A stretch of DNA of 50,147 nt from Planctomycetaceae bacterium (GTDB taxonomy: Bacteria > Planctomycetota > Planctomycetia > Pirellulales > PALSA-1355), in the NCBI GenBank assembly GCA_003153375.1, contig PLYM01000260.1, forward strand, positions 1 through 50,147, given 5' to 3'. Shown in pieces: positions 3,107 to 46,021 of the stretch; position 1 is the first letter of the stretch; the number at the start of each line of letters is the position of its first letter. The translations under genes were made by a program, and so were the position numbers. Below the pieces are notes generated by a model, which saw nothing but the letters and a program-made list of their open reading frames with translations, made no database searches and had not been told where the DNA came from.

Positions 3107-3833
3107 GTCCGTGGCTCCTCGGTTGTGAGTACCCGCTAGGCTTGCGATAACCTCCCCTTGGGTACCTGACAGGGGAAGCCGCTTCGTGCAAAAATCAAAC
3201 TCGCATCGTCATGAATCCCTCGCGAGATTCAACATCCGCTAACATCCGTGTTACTCGTTTCGGTCGAGTGACGCTCGTTCGTTTGAGCTTTTTTTGATTC
3301 CAGTCGATTGGTTTTGCGAGCCAACTTTTTTTCTTTCGATCGTTCGTCAAACTCGTGTTTCACGCAGGATTGACGCGGTGCAACCGTTTGACTGCGGGGA
3401 TTGAACCAATTTCGGTCGATGCGAGTCAAGGCGAGTTCCCAGTTAAACCAGCCCGAAAAGCAAATGTTTTTTCGCCGCGCCCAGCGTGCGCGGCGCTTCC
3501 GATGACGATGGCGCGCCGCGGCGCGGAACGATTTTCAACGCGTCCAGGCGCGCCACGCGCCAATGCCGGCGCGGTGATTCGAGCGCGCCGGATGGGGCCC
3601 GATCGGGCGCTGCTAGCTGGCATGCAAGTGCGATCATCGGCCCGCCCGCGGCGCGACGATTCCAGCCGGCATTCGGCCGCATTTCGGCCCCTGGCAGCCA
3701 CTTGGAAGCGAACCTGCAAGCTACTATGATTGTCGCACGCTAGTACACGAAGCCCTTGAAGCGATGAGCCTTGGAACGGCCGGCGGAGACCGGTCTTCAG
3801 GGCAGCTAACCTGTTCTGCCGGGAGTTGTTCCG
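3107..3833. other. Long intergenic region with hairpins and GC-rich block
   Basis: No convincing gene in 727 bases between two divergently read genes. Positions 3250-3272 form an 8-bp stem (GTTACTCG / CGAGTGAC, one G-U), followed by GCTC...GAGC (3273-3288) and seven Ts (3289-3295), which resembles a plus-strand terminator although no plus-strand gene lies upstream. From 3475 to 3720 the sequence becomes dense in GCGCG/GGCGC words and is open on both strands, without any recognisable protein. The aspartate aminotransferase start is preceded by GGGAG at 3821-3825. The promoters of both flanking genes should lie here, but I could not identify them. Confidence 0.5.
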
Positions 3834-5030
3834 ATGCCGCCTGCCATTTCACGTATCGTTCAGAATCTCGAGCCTTCGGCGACGTTGGCCATGGCCGCCA
3901 AAGCCAAAGAATTAAAGGCGGCGGGCAAGACCGTCTATGACTTCAGCGTGGGCGAGCCCGACTTCACCACGCCCGAGCACATCTGCCAGGCGGCCGTCGC
4001 GGCGATGAAAGCCGGCCACACCCACTACACCGTGGCCAGCGGCATCCCCGAGCTGCGCACGGCCATTGCCAAACAATATAAATCGGTCCACGGACTCACC
4101 TACACGGCCCAGCAAGTCGTGGTCTCGAACGGGGCCAAGCACTCGCTGCACAATATTTTCACCGCCCTGTGCAATCCGGGCGACGAGGTGATCATTCCGG
4201 CTCCTTACTGGGTCAGCTATGCCGAGCTGGTCAAGCTGACCGGTGCCGTGCCCGTAATCGTGCCGACCCAGGAGTCGAACAACTTCAAGCTGACGCCCGA
4301 GGAGTTGCGCAAAGCGATCACCTCCAAAACGACCATCCTGTTGATCTGCTCGCCGTCGAACCCGACCGGCACCATGTACTCGCCCGAAGAGCTGGGCGCG
4401 CTGGCCGACATTGTGCTAGAGCGCAACCTGACGGTCGTCTCCGACGAAATCTACGAGCGGCTGATTTACGGCAATCATCGCTTTGCCAGCGTGGCCACGG
4501 TGCGGCCCGGCATGCAAGAGCGAACCATCGTCGTCAACGGGGCGAGCAAGGCCTATGCCATGACCGGCTGGCGTATCGGTTGGACGCTGTCACCGGCCAA
4601 CGTGGCCACGGCGATGGCCGACTTGCAGAGCCAGGAGACCTCGAACCCTTCGAGCATCAGCCAGTACGCCGCCATCGCGGCGATCGAGGGCCCCCAGCAA
4701 TGCGTCGAGCAGATGCTCGTCGAGTTCGCCAAGCGGCGCGAGTTCGTGCGGCAGCGCATCGCCTCGATCCCCGGCCTGTCGTGTCCCGACATGGCCGGCG
4801 CGTTTTATGCCTTCGTCAACATCAAGAGCCATCTGGGCCGCAACTACGGCAGCGCCCGGGTCGACAATTCGACTCAATGGTGCCTGACCCTGCTCGAGCA
4901 GCAGAACGTTGCCACGGTGATGGGCTCAGCCTTTGGCGCCGAGGGCTACGCCCGCATCTCGTTCGCCACCGGACTGGAAACGCTGCAGTCGGGCTTCGAT
5001 CTCATCGAAGCGTTTCTCAAGAGCAAGTAG
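3834..5030 (+). CDS. aspC: Aspartate aminotransferase (class I PLP-dependent)
   Basis: 398 residues, the normal length for class Ib aspartate aminotransferases. It transfers the amino group between aspartate and 2-oxoglutarate using pyridoxal phosphate, in the cytoplasm. Visible signatures are SVGEPDFTTPEH near the start, the cofactor-phosphate loop SNGAKHSLHN, CSPSNPTGTMY, the VVSDEIYERLIY region, and the Schiff-base lysine Lys239 in NGASKAYAMTGWRIGW, with a substrate-carboxylate Arg expected near the C-terminus (YARISFATG). ATG at 3834 has GGGAG 8 bases upstream, which supports the start. It stands alone; the next gene has its own promoter. Closely related enzymes can also be prephenate aminotransferases, so the substrate is likely but not proven. 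Confidence 0.92.
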   Translation: MPPAISRIVQNLEPSATLAMAAKAKELKAAGKTVYDFSVGEPDFTTPEHICQAAVAAMKAGHTHYTVASGIPELRTAIAKQYKSVHGLTYTAQQVVVSNGAKHSLHNIFTALCNPGDEVIIPAPYWVSYAELVKLTGAVPVIVPTQESNNFKLTPEELRKAITSKTTILLICSPSNPTGTMYSPEELGALADIVLERNLTVVSDEIYERLIYGNHRFASVATVRPGMQERTIVVNGASKAYAMTGWRIGWTLSPANVATAMADLQSQETSNPSSISQYAAIAAIEGPQQCVEQMLVEFAKRREFVRQRIASIPGLSCPDMAGAFYAFVNIKSHLGRNYGSARVDNSTQWCLTLLEQQNVATVMGSAFGAEGYARISFATGLETLQSGFDLIEAFLKSK

Positions 5031-5089
5031 CGATACTCGCCCCTCGCTTACGACCTTCCGTGACGTTATCTCTCCGGCGAGTCTCTGGA

Positions 5090-5117
5090 TTGCACGGAGA
5101 TTCTCAGGGCGTATAGT
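5090..5117 (+). promoter_or_regulatory. Sigma-70-type promoter for zinc-ribbon/CD225 gene
   Basis: TTGCAC at 5090-5095, a 16-base spacer and TATAGT at 5112-5117. This is a good match to a housekeeping promoter and would give a leader of about 135 bases before the gene at 5260. Confidence 0.55.
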
Positions 5118-5259
5118 ATCTTCCGCCTTCGACGCAACCAAGTTGTTGAAGCAAAACGGAATCAAGGTCGGTTTCTGTGGCGCGGATTCTGTCGCAACTG
5201 TGAGCGCGTCGGTATCGATGACTCGCCTGGCCGACAGGCTTCTCCGATAGGGAGGCACG

Positions 5260-36131: not shown

Positions 36132-37175
36132 CTAATCGATAGGCTTCCCGGCCGCCAGGTGCCGGGCCCAGCGTTCGTATTCCTGCTGGCAATCTTCGGG
36201 GCTGACGTAGGCCTTCCAAACCATCCGCGCCCTGAAACCGTAGTCCTGGCCGGCCGCGACGCGGTGAATCACATACTGCCAATCGAAGGCCGGTCGCGGG
36301 AACTTGGGCACCTTGAATTTGAACAGGCTAAAACGAATCTCGTCGCGCTCGCTGGTGCTCTTGTCGAACATCATGATCAACGTCATGCCATGCGCGGCGC
36401 GGCCAAAATAGAAGGGTTGGGTGTAGCGCGGCTGGTCGTAGCTCCACAGGTTGAGCTTGAAGTTGTGATCGGCGTCATACTCCAGCGGCGGTGCGCCGGC
36501 CGCGCGATAGGTGCCGCCGCCGTTGTAGTCGGCATGTCCCGGCGGCGCGTCGGCCGCGATCCACTGCTCGGCCTCGCCCGCTTTGGCCTGGCCCCGGAAG
36601 TTCAGCGCCACCTGCTCGACGTCGTTCATGTAGTTGGCAAAGAACAACACGGCATAGCCGCGCGGACCGAATAGCTCCGGCTGTTGGGCCCGACAGCGAA
36701 AATCGAGATCGATCGCGTTCGGCTCGACCAACGTGTAGGTGAGCGTGCTGGCCAGCTTCCAGGGATCGTCCTGGGCCTCGCGCACCAGCCGCACGGCCGG
36801 CTCGCGCGGCGCGCGCAACAGCGTGTACTGGTGATGCCGGGGCATGAATAGGTTATTGGGTGACTTGTGCCCCGCAATCACATGCTCGAAATTCAAACCG
36901 GCCGACGCGCCCGGCGAATCGGGATCGAACGCGTCGAAGTCCGGGGCCGAGCGCCGATTGAAGAGTGCATCGACGCCGCTGAGCACGCCGGGCGACTGGC
37001 TGTTATCGCGAAACACGGCCTCGAGCTCGCCGTGCTTGACCGTGGTCGTTTCGCAACGCGTCCAGCCCGCGTCATCACTCCGGGCCAGCAACCCGCCGAC
37101 GACGGCCAGCAGGCCGCAAAGACTCGCGACGCGGCACGATCTCAATCGGAACGAGGATGCTGATTCCAGAGGCAT
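36132..37175 (-). CDS. Conserved secreted protein of unknown function
   Basis: 347 residues with a signal peptide (basic start, CRVASLCGLLAVVGGLLA). The mature part looks beta-rich, with blocks such as GLNFEHVIAGH, YAVLFFANYMNDVEQVALNF, AAHGMTLIMMFDKS and FDWQYVIHRVAAGQDYGFRARMVWK. I do not recognise a family; it might be a planctomycete carbohydrate-binding or lectin-like protein. It follows lptB by 39 bases on the same strand and may be cotranscribed with it. Confidence 0.7.
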   Translation of the reverse strand: MPLESASSFRLRSCRVASLCGLLAVVGGLLARSDDAGWTRCETTTVKHGELEAVFRDNSQSPGVLSGVDALFNRRSAPDFDAFDPDSPGASAGLNFEHVIAGHKSPNNLFMPRHHQYTLLRAPREPAVRLVREAQDDPWKLASTLTYTLVEPNAIDLDFRCRAQQPELFGPRGYAVLFFANYMNDVEQVALNFRGQAKAGEAEQWIAADAPPGHADYNGGGTYRAAGAPPLEYDADHNFKLNLWSYDQPRYTQPFYFGRAAHGMTLIMMFDKSTSERDEIRFSLFKFKVPKFPRPAFDWQYVIHRVAAGQDYGFRARMVWKAYVSPEDCQQEYERWARHLAAGKPID

Positions 37176-37989: not shown

Positions 37990-39771
37990 CTAGCGAATGA
38001 ACCCCATGCCCGGAAAGTTGGGAATGACGCCGATCGAGATATTCGTCAACGGAATGTATAAGTCCAGCGGGTGCGGCCAATAGACGAACAGGGCTTTGCC
38101 CACCAGCAAATCGCGCTGCACATAGTTCTGGCTCGACCACAGCCGGGCGTCGGAACTGGCGGGACTGTTGTCGCCCAGCACGAAAAACTGATCGGGACCA
38201 AAGGGCTCGTCGTCGGAAGGAAACGTGACCTTCTGCCGCAGGTCGAAGACGTTGCGGCCCTGTGGGGTCTGCCACTTTTCGGGCGAGGCGAAAAAGTCGG
38301 CCAACTCCTCCGCGTTCATCTGCACCATGCTCGTATTCTGATCGCGAAAATCGGAGATCACGTTTCGCGCATAGCGCGATTTTTCGGCGATGTAGTAGAC
38401 GTCGCGCAGCACGCGCAAATGGTTCACGGCCAGGGCCGCGCGCCGCGAGCCGATGCCCACCGGCGCCAGGTCGCCCCGGTCGCGCCCCGTGGCCTGCGGC
38501 CGATCGTTATCCAGGTACGGATAACTCGTGGGCTCGTCGAATGCCACCACCTTGTCGTTGACCCACAGCAGCAATTGCTGATCGACATTGGCGAACATCA
38601 CGCGATACTTGCCGCCGCCACGCACGTCGGTCGCGGCCGTGGGCTTCCAATCGGGCACGCCGTCGATGCTCAAGCCGGCCTGCCCCGTGGCCACGTCGAT
38701 CGTGCAGCGGAATTGCCGTCCGCCCTTGCACAAGTTCAACAGCAGCTCTCCCGCGGTGCCTTGCACGTCGACTTCGCAGTCCAGCGTCAGGTCGCCAACC
38801 CAGTGCAATCCCAGCGCGGCGGGAAACGAGCCGCCCTCGCTCCGCACGACGCGCGTATTGAACGCGTAAAAGTCGGTAATCAACTGCGGTGGCGAGGCCG
38901 CCTTGGGGGGCCACCGATCGCGTCCCCAATTGGCCTGGCCCGGCACGATGTGCTGATAGCGAATCCAGGCTTCGCCCGCGCCGCTGCCATCGGTCTGGTA
39001 CGAGCGCGTGTCCTCGGAGACTTGCCAATCGCCCGGCGTTTCCTGTTCGGACCAGACTTGCCAGCGCAAGGGCCAGCCATGAGCGGCCAGCGAGTCGGCC
39101 ACATAGTCGTTGTCGTACACCACCTGCGACATCGCCCGCACCTTGTCCGGCGGCTTGCGCTGAATGACAAAGTCGGCGTCGTCGACCCCCTTGGTGTAGA
39201 TGTCGCCGTGATGAATCTTCAACTGTTCGTTGGGCAATCCGACCAGGCGCTTGATGTAATAGGTTTCGGCTTCCTCGGGAAAGCGAAACACGATCACGTC
39301 CCAGCGGCGCGGCTCCATCAGGTTATAGGGAACCTTGCTGACCCAGATGCGGTCGCCGCTGTAGCTGAGCTTGGCGGCGCGGCCGGCGTTGGCCGGGTCG
39401 CTCGGGTCGACTGACACCGTGTAGCGGCAGTTGGGACAGGTGCAGGCGATCACGTCGTACCTCGGATCCATGCGCAGGGTGCCGTCGCGATCGGCCTCCT
39501 CGCTGCCGCTGGCCGAGTAGCGAAAATCGCACTCGGGACAAACGACGTCCTTGTGCCGACCCATCAACGTCGGCGCCATCGAGCCGGTGGGAATCACGAA
39601 CGCCTCGGCCTCGAACGTCTTGAACAAGAACGCCAGTGCAAAGGCGATCGCCACGCATTCGATCGTCTCGCGCACGCCGCGCGAAAAATGCGACGTGCCG
39701 TGGCCGGTTCCCTCGGGCAAAGTGGGTGGAGGCGCGGCGGGGCGGGCGGGGGCGGAAGTCGGAGTGCTCAT
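37990..39771 (-). CDS. lepB: Signal peptidase I, zinc-ribbon and sandwich insert
   Basis: 593 residues, far above the usual 200-320 of bacterial signal peptidase I. One N-terminal membrane helix precedes IPTGSMAPTLMG with the nucleophile Ser64. A zinc-ribbon-like segment (CPEC at 78-81, CPNC at 112-115) follows, then the general-base Lys146 in GDRIWVSKVPY, so the Ser-Lys dyad is intact. A ~200-residue insert predicted to be a beta sandwich (LTLDCEVDVQG ... LLLWVNDKVV) separates these from the last box, GDNSPASSDARLW. It removes signal peptides at the outer face of the inner membrane. It is third in transcription order of three tandem paralogues and the only one with the Lys. Confidence 0.9.
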   Translation of the reverse strand: MSTPTSAPARPAAPPPTLPEGTGHGTSHFSRGVRETIECVAIAFALAFLFKTFEAEAFVIPTGSMAPTLMGRHKDVVCPECDFRYSASGSEEADRDGTLRMDPRYDVIACTCPNCRYTVSVDPSDPANAGRAAKLSYSGDRIWVSKVPYNLMEPRRWDVIVFRFPEEAETYYIKRLVGLPNEQLKIHHGDIYTKGVDDADFVIQRKPPDKVRAMSQVVYDNDYVADSLAAHGWPLRWQVWSEQETPGDWQVSEDTRSYQTDGSGAGEAWIRYQHIVPGQANWGRDRWPPKAASPPQLITDFYAFNTRVVRSEGGSFPAALGLHWVGDLTLDCEVDVQGTAGELLLNLCKGGRQFRCTIDVATGQAGLSIDGVPDWKPTAATDVRGGGKYRVMFANVDQQLLLWVNDKVVAFDEPTSYPYLDNDRPQATGRDRGDLAPVGIGSRRAALAVNHLRVLRDVYYIAEKSRYARNVISDFRDQNTSMVQMNAEELADFFASPEKWQTPQGRNVFDLRQKVTFPSDDEPFGPDQFFVLGDNSPASSDARLWSSQNYVQRDLLVGKALFVYWPHPLDLYIPLTNISIGVIPNFPGMGFIR

Positions 39772-39780
39772 AGTTGGATT

Positions 39781-41571
39781 CTACCTGATGAAGCCCATGC
39801 GAGCGAAGTTCGGAAAGAATGGGAAGGGAATGCTGGTGCCTGGTAGCACGTCAAACGAGTGCGGCCAAAAGATCAACAAGGCCTTGCCCACCAGCAAGTC
39901 GCGGTCGACGTAAGGCTCGACCTCCCACAGACGTGCGTCCTTGCTGGCCGGGCTATTATCGCCCAGCGGGAAGAACTGATCGGCCGCCAGCGAGAAGATC
40001 GCCTCCTGCCGCTCTTCGAAGGGGCTCGGCCTGCCCGCCGGCCGCCACATCGCGGGGGTCGAAAAGAACTTGACCAGGCTATCGTAGTCCAAGCCAGGCA
40101 GCATGCCCGAGCGGTCATAGTCCGAAATTTGAACCTGCCCCTGTTGGGCCGCGATGTAATACAGGTCGCGCCACAGCCGTAAGTGGCTCACCGCCAGCGA
40201 AGCCGAGCTTGCGCCAATGCCAGCCGGCGCCAGGTCGAGCGGATCGGCCGACGTCGCTTGCGGAATCTCGTCGTCGAGCGGGTCATAGGTCGTGGGCGCG
40301 TTGAACGGAACCGGCGTGCCGTCGATCCACAGCAGCAATTGCCGGTCGACGTTGCCGAAAATCACGCGATGGCTGCCCTTACCGCGCACCGCCGTGCTGG
40401 CCGTGGGATGAAAATCGTCCTGGCCCTCGATCGACAAGCGCACCGTGCCGTCGGCGCAGTCGAGCTGGCAGTCAAAATGCTTGCCGCCTTTGACGAGATC
40501 GAAGTGGACCTGACCTTCGGCTGAGTTGACATCGAGTTGGCACTCGATCATCAGGTCGCCAACCCAGTGCTGCCCGATCAGGGTCGGCCCGCGTTCCGAC
40601 TCGCGCATGCGATAAATGCCTGTGTTGTAGGCACAAAAATCGGTGATCAATTGCGCGGCCGGATGAAAGTCCTCCGGCAACGATCCCTGCTTCAAGCGGG
40701 CCCAATCGTCGAGGGTGGGCACGTAGTGCCGATAGCGCAGCCAGCGGATCGGACCGCCGGCGCTCTCGATCTGAAACTTGCGACCGTCGTCTTGCGTGGT
40801 CCACTGAGCCTGCGGCGCTGCCGGCGCCGCAGGCGAGTTATTCCAGCGCGGCGGCCACCGCTTGTCGGTCATCGACGGCACAACGTAGTCATTGTCATAG
40901 ACGATCTGCGCCATCTCGCGCACCTTGGCCGGGCCGCGGCGCTCGATCTGATACGCGTCGCCCCCCTCGGGCTTGATGTAAATGTCGCCGTGCCAGATGC
41001 GCACTTGCTCGTTGGGCAAACCGATCAGGCGCTTGATGTAATTCTCTTGCGCCAGACCGGGATACTTGAAAATGAAAACGTCCCACCGCCGCGGCTCGCC
41101 AAACTCGTAATTGAACCGCGTGGCCAGAATCCGATCGCCGCCATAGGTCGGATACTCGCGCCCCGTCGCGGTGCGGGGGTCGACCGAGGTCGACGCGCGG
41201 CACAGCGGGCACATCACCGACACCACCTCGCGCGCCTCGGGCGGCAATGTCGAGGGCTGAAGCGGCGACTCGGTTTCCTGGCTGGCGCCCACCTGATAGC
41301 GATATTTGCAGTTAGGGCACAACAAATCCTTGTGCTGCCCCATCAAGGTCAAGGCCATCGAGCCCGTCGGGATGACGAAGGCCTCGGCGACGAACGCGCG
41401 AAACAACAGCGCCAACACTAGCGCGATCGCCATGGCCTCGACCGACTCGCGCACGGCATGCGCCAGCCCGTGTTTCGGCGTCGGGACCGGCACGGTTTTT
41501 TGGGGACTCGCCACCGTTACGCGCGGCGCGCTGGCCGTCGGTTTCGTCGGAGGTGATTTCTTTTTCGCCAT
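39781..41571 (-). CDS. Signal peptidase I paralogue, Lys replaced by Arg
   Basis: 596 residues with the same plan as its neighbour: a long N-terminal Lys/Pro/Thr-rich tail, one membrane helix, IPTGSMALTLMG with Ser71, two CxxC pairs (CPNC at 85-88, CPLC at 121-124), a ~200-residue insert with RLSIEG...RQLLLWIDG, and GDNSPASKDARLWEVE. At the general-base position the sequence is GDRILATRFNY, with Arg152 (codon CGG at 41118-41116) where signal peptidases have Lys. It may be a weak or altered peptidase, a regulator or a substrate-binding partner. It is only 9 bases from the next gene downstream. Confidence 0.88.
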   Translation of the reverse strand: MAKKKSPPTKPTASAPRVTVASPQKTVPVPTPKHGLAHAVRESVEAMAIALVLALLFRAFVAEAFVIPTGSMALTLMGQHKDLLCPNCKYRYQVGASQETESPLQPSTLPPEAREVVSVMCPLCRASTSVDPRTATGREYPTYGGDRILATRFNYEFGEPRRWDVFIFKYPGLAQENYIKRLIGLPNEQVRIWHGDIYIKPEGGDAYQIERRGPAKVREMAQIVYDNDYVVPSMTDKRWPPRWNNSPAAPAAPQAQWTTQDDGRKFQIESAGGPIRWLRYRHYVPTLDDWARLKQGSLPEDFHPAAQLITDFCAYNTGIYRMRESERGPTLIGQHWVGDLMIECQLDVNSAEGQVHFDLVKGGKHFDCQLDCADGTVRLSIEGQDDFHPTASTAVRGKGSHRVIFGNVDRQLLLWIDGTPVPFNAPTTYDPLDDEIPQATSADPLDLAPAGIGASSASLAVSHLRLWRDLYYIAAQQGQVQISDYDRSGMLPGLDYDSLVKFFSTPAMWRPAGRPSPFEERQEAIFSLAADQFFPLGDNSPASKDARLWEVEPYVDRDLLVGKALLIFWPHSFDVLPGTSIPFPFFPNFARMGFIR

Positions 41572-41619
41572 CGATTCATCAACCCGTGCCTGAAATTCGC
41601 TTCCTGGCCTCAGCCGTGA

Positions 41620-42966
41620 TTACCATTTCAACACCCGGCCCACCAGCATCGCGTCGCTCAACCCCGGCGGTGACCAGCCCCGGCTATCCAGGGCGTGGGG
41701 GCTGTTGTCGCCCAGCAAGCAGTATTCGCCCGGGGCCAGTTCAAATTGAGTCGCGGCCGTGCCACGGGGGCCGTCCGTGTAGAAAACATCTCGCCAAACC
41801 TGCAAATCGCGCACCTCGACCTGGGCTCCCTGGGCGCCAATCGCCAGCGGTTCATCCCGCGACGGCGTTTCTCCGCTGGAAAACACAGCCGAAGGCGTGG
41901 ACGGTTGATAGTCGAACTCCACCAGCAAACTGCCATTGAGCGCTAACCGCGCGCACTGGTCGACGACGAACAGCTCGACCGTTGCCATTCGGCTAAATGG
42001 CTCGAAACCTGCCTCGATCAATTGGGTCCGATGCCCGTTGTGGTCCAGATCGCCCTCACCGGTCTCAACGTCCACGCGGACCAGAAACTCGTCGGTTTGC
42101 GAGCGGGCTCGCAGCCAAACCGCTCCATTCCCGCTGGCCTGAATCTGGCAGCGCAGCGCGACGTCGGTCACCGGATTCAACGTGCGCGATTCGTCTTGGT
42201 CGTAGGCACTCTCGTCCATGATCAGCCCCCCTTGCGCACCGCCTGCGAACCGCTGCTGATGGCGGTAGACCAGCCAGTCGACCGGTGTGTTGCGGGGCCG
42301 CCGAGCGGGTCGATCGCGGCGGGGTCTCTCTTTCTCTTTCTCGTTGTGTACATAACCGTCCGCCGTCGGCGACCATGGCTGGCCTTGCGGCGGTTGCCAA
42401 CGCGGGTCGCCCGCCGGGCTGTCGTAAACCAGCACGGCCATCGATCGGCAAGTGGCCAAATCCTTGGTCGCGATCGTGCCGTCGACCACGAGCTCTCCGG
42501 CGCGGATTTGCAGTTTCTCTCCCGGCAAGCCCACCACCCGCTTCACGCACAGCGTGCGCGCATCGTCGGGGCAGCGGAACACGACCGGCTCCCAGCGCCG
42601 CGGCGCGCGCCAATAAAATGCCGAGCGGTCAATCAGCACGCGATCGCCGCGCAGATCCTGCCCGGCTTCGACGTCGTTCTCCGTGCCGCAATTCGGGCAA
42701 ATGGCCGCCGCTCCCGGCGAGGGCAACGACTCCAGCCCACAGTTAAAAGTGCGCTGGCAGCCCGAGCATTGCCACTGGCGATGCGGTCCCAACAGTGCCG
42801 GCGCCATCGATCCGCTGGCCACGATCACCGGCGCGAGCAAGCCCTCGACCAGCCAGGTATCGACCAACAGCACCAGAACGCCGCAACCAACGACCCATCG
42901 CAACAGCCGCCGCAAGGCGCGGCTGCCCAACGTCGCGCGCGACCGGTTTGGCTCGGGGCACATCAT
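41620..42966 (-). CDS. Divergent signal peptidase I paralogue, Lys replaced by Arg
   Basis: 448 residues, shorter than the other two. A membrane helix (residues ~25-45) leads to VASGSMAPALLG with Ser53, a Cys cluster (CSGC at 67-70, CPNC at 90-93), and then GDRVLIDRSAFYW, where Arg114 (codon CGC at 42627-42625) stands in place of the general-base Lys. The family sequence PRRWEPVVFRCP, an insert (residues ~215-400 with VELFVVD, LALNGSLLVEF) and GDNSPHALDSRGW follow. The insert ends with the shared VEVRDLQVWRDVFY block. First of three paralogues in transcription order, 41 bases after lepA. Its activity is doubtful; the fold is clear. Confidence 0.82.
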   Translation of the reverse strand: MMCPEPNRSRATLGSRALRRLLRWVVGCGVLVLLVDTWLVEGLLAPVIVASGSMAPALLGPHRQWQCSGCQRTFNCGLESLPSPGAAAICPNCGTENDVEAGQDLRGDRVLIDRSAFYWRAPRRWEPVVFRCPDDARTLCVKRVVGLPGEKLQIRAGELVVDGTIATKDLATCRSMAVLVYDSPAGDPRWQPPQGQPWSPTADGYVHNEKEKERPRRDRPARRPRNTPVDWLVYRHQQRFAGGAQGGLIMDESAYDQDESRTLNPVTDVALRCQIQASGNGAVWLRARSQTDEFLVRVDVETGEGDLDHNGHRTQLIEAGFEPFSRMATVELFVVDQCARLALNGSLLVEFDYQPSTPSAVFSSGETPSRDEPLAIGAQGAQVEVRDLQVWRDVFYTDGPRGTAATQFELAPGEYCLLGDNSPHALDSRGWSPPGLSDAMLVGRVLKW

Positions 42967-44856: not shown

Positions 44857-45894
44857 TCAAGTTTTTTGAAGTAAATAGGCCCGGCGGGCCAAACCCGCGG
44901 CTCCGATGAATCCGGCGTCGCCGCCGAGCGAGGCATAATCGATCGCGGTCCGCTGGGCCAAAAACGGAAACGCCCGCCGCCCGACTTCTTCCTTGACGCG
45001 CTCCAAAAACCTTCGCCCGGTCGCGGTGGTGTGCTGACCAAACGTCATCGCGCCGCCGATCACCACGCCCTGTGGATCAATGGCGTGCATGGCCGACGTG
45101 ATGCCGATTCCCAAGTACCGCGCCGTATCCAACACGATCTCCAAAGCCAACGCGTCGCCGCGCTCGGCCTCTTCGTCGATCATCAGGGCCGTCAACTCTT
45201 CGCAGGCGGCGGTTCGATCGGCCAGCGAACTGGGCCGCCCGCCGCGCAGCACCTCGTGCGTGCGCTTCACCACCGACGAGGCGCTGGCATAGGCTTCCAG
45301 GTGGCCCGTCTTGCCGCAGGAGCAAAGCCGGGCGTTGTCGTTGCAATCGATGATCATGTGTCCCAGCTCCGAACCCGCGCTGTTCTCACCTTCGACCGAC
45401 AGGTCGCCGATGATAATGCCGCCCCCGACGCCCGTGCCCAGGGTGAACATCACCATGCTGTGCAACACCCTGCCGCTGCCGACCCAAAACTCGCCATAGG
45501 CAGCGGCGCCGGCATCGTTGCCAAACGTCACGCCAGCCCCCGTGGCCTGGCTGAGGGCGTCACGGATCGGAAAATTCCACCATCCGGGCAAATTGCCCGG
45601 TTCGAGCAGGATGCCCCGGGGTACGTCCATCGTGCCGGGCGTGCCCAAGCCGACCCGCGCGATCGCTCCCCATTCCAAACCGGCCTCGCTGACCACTTTG
45701 CGAACCGCCTCGCCCGCGCGGGCGACCGCCGCCTGAGGGCCTTTTTCCACCTGGGTGGCGATGTGCGTGGCGTTCAACGGCCGACCCAGATCGTCGACCA
45801 CGCCAATCTTGATATTCGTTCCCCCGACGTCCACGCCAACGAAGAAGGGGGGGCATGCCTCAGCTAACGGAACAAACTGCCGCGAGTCAGCCAT
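44857..45894 (-). CDS. ROK family sugar kinase (glucokinase-like)
   Basis: 345 residues from ATG 45894. The ATP loop VGVDVGGTNIKIGVVDD opens the fold, GNDAGAAAYGEFW and TLGTGVGGGII follow, and the ROK signature region has GHMIIDC...CSCGKTGHLEAYAS. ROK zinc sites normally read CxCGxxGC; here the last Cys is His198 (with Cys191 and Cys193 kept), so zinc could still bind through His. The active-site His is GHM. ROK glucokinases phosphorylate glucose or related sugars in the cytoplasm, which fits an organism with a glycogen cluster. The substrate is inferred. First gene of the long minus-strand run. Confidence 0.88.
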   Translation of the reverse strand: MADSRQFVPLAEACPPFFVGVDVGGTNIKIGVVDDLGRPLNATHIATQVEKGPQAAVARAGEAVRKVVSEAGLEWGAIARVGLGTPGTMDVPRGILLEPGNLPGWWNFPIRDALSQATGAGVTFGNDAGAAAYGEFWVGSGRVLHSMVMFTLGTGVGGGIIIGDLSVEGENSAGSELGHMIIDCNDNARLCSCGKTGHLEAYASASSVVKRTHEVLRGGRPSSLADRTAACEELTALMIDEEAERGDALALEIVLDTARYLGIGITSAMHAIDPQGVVIGGAMTFGQHTTATGRRFLERVKEEVGRRAFPFLAQRTAIDYASLGGDAGFIGAAGLARRAYLLQKT

Positions 45895-46021
45895 TGCATG
45901 CGCGTGTGGCAAGGAAGGAGGACAAGCTCGTCGGAACCGGACGACAACCAGGGGAAGTATAAGGGGTTACGCCCGGGCCGACAATGCGGACCGGGCGCGT
46001 GAATTCAAAACGTAAGGCATT

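Follow-up and report, generated by a model that had tools for sequence, protein, structure and literature searches.

Signal peptidase I (SPase I) is essential and serves as a target for antibiotics. The Escherichia coli enzyme, LepB, has two membrane helices and its gene lies downstream of lepA. Chlamydial LepB is unusually long, a point that serves here as a lead only. The non-catalytic domain of SPase I is highly variable and of no known function; one proposal is that it helps to recognize the preprotein's mature part (PMC4704075). A precedent for a specialized second SPase that serves particular secreted proteins is SipW of Bacillus subtilis, as described in one report (PMC10269814).

Here, we examine three SPase I genes, designated P3, P2 and P1, found in a 50,147 nt stretch of DNA (the window; contig PLYM01000260.1 of GenBank assembly GCA_003153375.1, positions 1 to 50,147, forward strand) from a Planctomycetaceae bacterium belonging to the class Planctomycetia, order Pirellulales. 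P3 represents what we call type A and P1 and P2 represent type B. In both types, the non-catalytic domain is predicted to be a concanavalin A-like (ConA-like) β-sandwich. The enzyme is a known one, represented here by a variant with a predicted lectin fold that is near-universal in the Planctomycetota. Its two types are ancient, and the third copy is a local addition. An original prediction, made from the sequence of the window, had included the impression that these inserts were undescribed, and in a search of 5.39 million open-access papers neither an SPase I with a ConA-like or zinc-ribbon insert nor the SPase architecture of planctomycetes was found to be described. The unusual envelopes and large secretomes of these bacteria are long-standing puzzles.

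The catalytic core and the predicted β-sandwich insert

P1, P2 and P3 are, on the evidence of their sequences, intact type I SPases (LepB, MEROPS S26A). They score 93, 90 and 60 bits, respectively, against PF10502 (Peptidase_S26; cut-off 22.9), and 91, 84 and 60 bits against TIGR02227 (cut-off 47). The open reading frames and the family scores agree with the prediction of three consecutive intact paralogues following lepA on one strand. The Ser box, two CxxC pairs and GDNSP box predicted for each paralogue were all found, together with a Lys box, the GDR of box C and a downstream D.R, though at the position of the 'S' in the S.D.R of box E P3 has Ala. In an alignment of 159 copies, the catalytic Lys is present in all 159. 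Almost every copy also has the Ser, Asp and Arg, and the few exceptions are gaps, single misaligned rows or one Arg-to-Lys substitution.

P1 and P3 were modelled with AlphaFold2, using input alignments of 119 and 52 sequences, respectively. The mean predicted local distance difference test score was 90.9 for P1 and 88.3 for P3, and the predicted template modelling score (pTM) was 0.89 and 0.86. Both cores resemble the E. coli SPase I (P3, Z 14.8 with 36 % identity over 124 residues; P1, Z 12.5 with 28 % over 181 residues). Each model has one hydrophobic N-terminal helix (residues 28–54 in P1 and 13–40 in P3), which is the predicted membrane anchor, along with a short-stranded CxxC segment, the SPase core and a β-sandwich lying between the Lys box and the GDN box.

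The models indicate that the insert is a two-sheet ConA-like β-sandwich in both type A and type B. The best ConA-like chains in VIA-align were those of the galactocerebrosidase lectin domain (Z 13.9 for the P1 sandwich, residues 210–460, and 16.4 for that of P3, residues about 170–395). The carbohydrate-binding module CBM66 gave Z 13.3 and 15.7, with 148–153 residues aligned at about 12 % identity, and Foldseek also matched the P3 sandwich to CBM66 (E 1.3e-6, TM 0.67). Further fold neighbours are GH16 enzymes, galectins, ERGIC-53/VIP36, legume lectins and L-type lectins. P2 aligns to P1 end to end and matches the insert profile at 40042–40953 (E 2.5e-91). The predicted sandwich-like insert before the GDNSP box is thus borne out by structure prediction and fold search for P1 and P3, and by alignment for P2. 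Because the insert occupies the site of the non-catalytic domain of S. aureus SpsB and E. coli LepB, it is an unusual version of the known variable domain of SPase I and not a domain at a new site.

No Pfam family reached its cut-off with the P1 insert, the best of 65 members giving E 0.002, and the curated ConA-like families Laminin_G_3, 3keto-disac_hyd and GLEYA were not matched above their cut-offs. A match of the insert to a well-described domain family, which would have spoken against the original prediction, was thus not obtained in Pfam. Among solved structures the insert profile matched only USP28 (E 0.015), and this weak, partial and isolated match was taken as chance.

Several charged and aromatic residues of the insert are almost invariant across all types. 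On an entropy scale, D397 and D457 (P1 numbering) score 0.99, R456 and Y460 score 0.96, and D327 scores 0.95, and these residues are conserved in 156, 156, 153, 153 and 153 of the 159 aligned copies, respectively. K206, W249, Y272, D300 and Y/F304 rank just below them. The predicted secondary structure places the conserved residues at the ends of strands and close to the two junctions between sandwich and core, and for this reason we infer that they form an interface, or a site near the core, which favours positioning or docking over a free glycan-binding face. The shared block (V/L)RDL.VWRD(V/L)(Y/F)Y that had been proposed for the three inserts reads VNHLRVLRDVYY in P1, VSHLRLWRDLYY in P2 and VRDLQVWRDVFY in P3. 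Its RD.(Y/F)Y part is kept, but the remainder is looser than proposed.

Distribution, descent and the substrate pocket

Relatives of P1 were found in 183 of 199 Planctomycetota genomes. A profile of the insert alone matched 284 of 294 genomes of the phylum, and 271 of the 280 with at least 90 % completeness and at most 5 % contamination. When nine genomes were searched deeply, with up to 116 candidates scored per genome, all places reported were SPase loci. A search of plasmids for the insert gave no match. The sandwich-bearing SPase is, by these profile matches, a near-universal trait of the Planctomycetota rather than a local oddity. The gene neighbourhood is also conserved. The lepA–lepB–lptB arrangement recurs in distant families (loci L065, L068, L069, L071, L072, L074 and L075), lptB follows the type B gene in nearly all loci of the class, and the order ROK kinase, lepA, lepB, lptB is conserved over the phylum. 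Conservation of the insert beyond this locus and synteny of lepA with lepB copies in related genomes, two of the checks proposed with the original prediction, were thus both found. One record, titled Candidatus Nealsonbacteria (L114), contains a typical Pirellulales A–B–lptB locus and is probably a mislabelled or mis-binned genome.

P1 and P2 are 49 % identical, and P3 shares about 20–40 % identity with either, depending on the region. A careful tree built from 56 sequences places type A (including P3), type B (including P1 and P2) and the sequences from other classes each on one side of a branch, and types A and B group together against the rest with support of 96/93. This topology fits a single duplication near the base of the class that gave rise to type A and type B, and in 31 of 40 further loci of the class the type A gene lies directly upstream of type B. 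The orthologues of P1 (support 100/99) and of P2 (99/98) form separate groups, and are found in the same order in two further genomes of the same family (G201 and G199). The split between P2 and P1 is, as judged from this tree, a later duplication of type B restricted to the family. A fourth genome of the family, which is 86 % complete, gave no match. Hence, the three genes in a row that were originally predicted are real here and in G201 and G199, but the class in general carries two genes, with A ahead of B, and three copies were seen only in this family. Tandem copies in families f22 (L055, L056 and L070) and f77 (L060 and L061) appear from their sequences to be separate duplications. That P1, P2 and P3 are close recent duplicates lacking a conserved insert elsewhere is ruled out by the 49 % identity of P1 and P2, the separate orthologue groups in three genomes, the split of A and B near the base of the class, and the phylum-wide conservation of the insert.

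The two types differ at the substrate pocket. Residues lining the S1 and S3 pockets of SpsB include Tyr30, Ile32, Met37 and Val76 (PMC4704075). The corresponding positions hold Phe, Ile, Met and Ile in each of the 91 type B sequences, and in all of them Pro and Thr precede the catalytic Gly-Ser. The pocket in Planctomycetota outside the class is nearly the same as that of type B, i.e. canonical. Type A sequences have Tyr, Leu or Val, then Ile or Val, Met, and mostly Val, and Ser, Ala, Thr or Asp replaces the Pro, while the catalytic Ser, Lys, Asp and Arg are kept. Because the motif used to find the first type B set overlaps the pocket, 40 loci selected with only the insert profile were compared in the same way. 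They showed the same contrast, except for isolated changes to Tyr or Val. The Pro is retained in basal type A copies (L239 and L242–L244), indicating that the drift of the pocket grew within the class. The possibility that type A copies are dead paralogues was rejected, as realignment keeps their Ser and Lys. Since type B keeps a canonical pocket and the pocket of type A has drifted with catalysis retained, the sequences suggest a housekeeping enzyme paired with a specialized one. Three residues before the catalytic Lys, immediately ahead of a Tyr-Ile-Lys motif, the P1 orthologues have Tyr where 86 of the 91 type B sequences have Asn.

The cysteine ribbon, the locus and other signal peptidase genes

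A second insertion, distinct from the sandwich, holds the CxxC pairs and lies after the Ser box but ahead of the GDR box. The zinc-ribbon-like quartets noted in the original prediction are present in each of P1, P2 and P3, as two CxxC pairs, and the P1 model has short strands in and around the segment (residues 73–77, 84–88, 107–111 and 118–120). Matches of the three proteins to Pfam zinc ribbons fall under the cut-off. The quartet is whole in 149 of the 159 copies. All four Cys are substituted in two (e.g. D-T-D-Y in L040), the segment is missing from five rows, and another three have gaps in part of it. That the four Cys are lost together is consistent with one metal site shared among them, although the count carries less weight because the copies have a common ancestry. 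On sequence grounds the quartet is probably a zinc ribbon.

Similar features were seen in other SPases of the phylum. Two genes of family f45 (4767–6284 in L072 and 4730–6247 in L071) encode six CxxC motifs, in three pairs located in different loops, one of them right before the catalytic Lys. These sequences suggest that ribbons entered different loops on more than one occasion. The tandem SPases of G017 (3808–5208 and 5340–6737 in L076) have a CxxC ribbon which, because it precedes the membrane helix, is probably cytoplasmic.

The features of the locus are listed in Table 1. Transcription runs from the ROK kinase gene through lepA, P3, P2 and P1 to lptB, with P3 nearest to lepA. Given that the gaps from lepA through to lptB are only 41, 48, 9 and 4 bases, lepA–P3–P2–P1–lptB is likely to be an operon. 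After lptB, a gene on the minus strand (36132–37175) encodes a 347 aa protein with no Pfam family, and the same gene is found in the same place in G201.

Table 1. Genes and protein segments of the SPase I locus, in order of transcription (positions in the window)
Feature	Position	Strand	Evidence and remarks
ROK-family sugar kinase, upstream of lepA	44857..45912	minus	co-located in L071, L072, L087, L119, L121, L127, L168 and L169
lepA, 603 aa, upstream of P3	43008..44819	minus	start 44819, stop 43008; phylum-wide synteny
P3, type A SPase I, 448 aa	41620..42966	minus	Ser53, Lys142, GDNSPHALDSR; PF10502 and TIGR02227
P3 CxxC...CxxC segment, residues 67–93	42688..42768	minus	sequence; Cys quartet kept as a unit family-wide
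P3 predicted ConA-like β-sandwich insert, residues 178–395	41782..42435	minus	AlphaFold2, VIA-align and Foldseek
P2, type B SPase I, 596 aa	39781..41571	minus	Ser71, Lys180, GDNSPASKDAR; PF10502 and TIGR02227
P2 CxxC...CxxC segment, residues 85–124	41200..41319	minus	sequence
P2 predicted ConA-like insert, residues about 216–472	40156..40926	minus	placed by alignment to P1; insert profile
P1, type B SPase I, 593 aa	37990..39771	minus	Ser64, Lys174, GDNSPASSDAR; PF10502 and TIGR02227
P1 CxxC...CxxC segment, residues 78–115	39427..39540	minus	sequence; strands in model
P1 predicted ConA-like β-sandwich insert, residues 210–460	38392..39144	minus	AlphaFold2 and VIA-align
lptB (lipopolysaccharide export ATPase), directly after P1	37215..37985	minus	TIGR04406, 334.7 bits (cut-off 240)

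Two further SPase genes without a sandwich are found in the same genome (G000). The first (54165–54833 in contig C29; about 6166–6834 in L058) is SPase-like, has an in-frame TAA and YLGRLVGLP at the position of the catalytic Lys, and may be a pseudogene or reflect a fault in the assembly. The second (8433–9770 in L057, contig C35) is a fifth SPase, which is extended at its N terminus and has a long insertion in the stretch from the Ser box to the GDQ box. Elsewhere, two type A copies are reduced to 236 aa. One is from Adhaeretor mobilis (4496–5206 in L120), and has lost the ribbon and most of the sandwich. The other is at 5025–5735 in L217.

Possible roles and relationship to known signal peptidases

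The reading that we favour, with a probability of roughly 0.6, is that these are lectin-fold SPases in a housekeeping neighbourhood, with type B acting generally, type A specialized, and the sandwich serving in positioning or docking. The architecture, its conservation over the phylum, the history of the paralogues and the divergence of their pockets are drawn from sequence or structure prediction. Each enzyme would be anchored by one membrane helix, and its Ser-Lys catalytic domain, like that of other SPase I, would lie on the outer side of the cytoplasmic membrane. The variable domain, from the Lys box to the GDN box, would be the ConA-like sandwich of about 180–250 residues, and the four-cysteine ribbon inserted after the Ser box would probably bind zinc. 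Type B, with its canonical Ala-X-Ala pocket, would most likely be the general SPase, and type A would probably act on a narrower or altered set of substrates. The sandwich is likely to pack against the catalytic core and to assist in positioning preproteins or in docking a partner from the envelope or translocon, at the side of the cleavage site that faces the mature protein.

Three points weigh against this reading. First, the packing of the sandwich is deduced from the pTM (0.86–0.89) and from conserved residues near the ends of the sandwich. Second, the Tyr (Phe84 position) and Val (Ile144 position) of type A also occur in SpsB, which keeps Ala-X-Ala specificity (PMC4704075), so an altered specificity of type A is put forward as a hypothesis. 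The division of labour originally suggested for the tandem stands in a limited form, namely that A and B are ancient paralogues that differ in the pocket with catalysis kept, and the hetero-oligomer suggested alongside it is speculative. Third, the ribbon or the greater part of the insert is missing from some type A copies (L108, L112 and L120), and neither is therefore needed by every member.

Glycan binding by the sandwich is possible by analogy, as all of the close fold matches (CBM66, GH16, galectins and L-type lectins) are carbohydrate-active or carbohydrate-binding. A true glycan-binding module could tether the SPase near polysaccharide or lipopolysaccharide under assembly, or recognize glycosylated preproteins, and the neighbouring lptB, which adjoins in nearly every locus of the class and in several other families of the phylum, would then reflect this role. 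However, the ConA-like fold also has roles that do not involve sugars and likeness of fold does not reveal function, no Pfam sugar-binding family reaches its cut-off with the insert, and the gene order may be plain housekeeping synteny. The residues D300, D327, D397, R456, D457 and Y460 sit at or close to the ends of strands and the place where the chain re-enters the core, and they hardly vary between widely differing families, which fits an interface better than a glycan site. We consider the glycan-binding explanation unlikely, although it is the most probable of the alternatives. A broader proposal, in which the sandwich recognizes an envelope glycan, a glycosylated preprotein or a translocon partner and so couples removal of the signal peptide to envelope assembly, with A and B sorting different secreted proteins, is speculative and we regard it as doubtful. 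That the sandwich and ribbon are simply structural stabilizers with no specific ligand or partner, and the paralogues redundant copies for dosage, draws on the position of the insert at the known variable domain (PMC4704075) and on type A copies that can lose both additions, but is improbable given that charged and aromatic insert residues are conserved at 95–99 % over the phylum, that the A/B pair has persisted from the base of the class and each type has its own pocket pattern, and that three genomes of the family maintain P1 and P2 as distinct orthologue groups.

A predicted ConA-like domain that has almost invariant charged residues and is present in nearly all of the phylum offers a concrete system in which to probe the role of the non-catalytic domain. 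The ancient A/B pair also makes division of labour between SPases directly testable in culturable planctomycetes.

Compared with described systems, the planctomycete enzymes share with E. coli LepB (PDB 1b12, 1t7d and 3s04) the Ser-Lys core with boxes B–E and a large non-catalytic domain at the same place. However, the non-catalytic domain of LepB is smaller and unrelated and there is no cysteine ribbon, and the P1 and P3 models show only one membrane helix. The catalytic core is also shared with SpsB and other Gram-positive SPase I, and the type A pocket is partly like that of SpsB (Tyr30 and Val76), but the non-catalytic domain of SpsB is only 53 residues long (85–137), and SpsB has neither ribbon nor sandwich (PMC4704075). 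SipW is archaeal-like, whereas type A is a LepB-type paralogue with an intact Ser-Lys dyad. CBM66 of B. subtilis (PDB 4azz and 4b1m) has the same overall β-sandwich fold at about 12 % identity, but is attached to a glycosidase, whereas the planctomycete sandwich is embedded in a protease.

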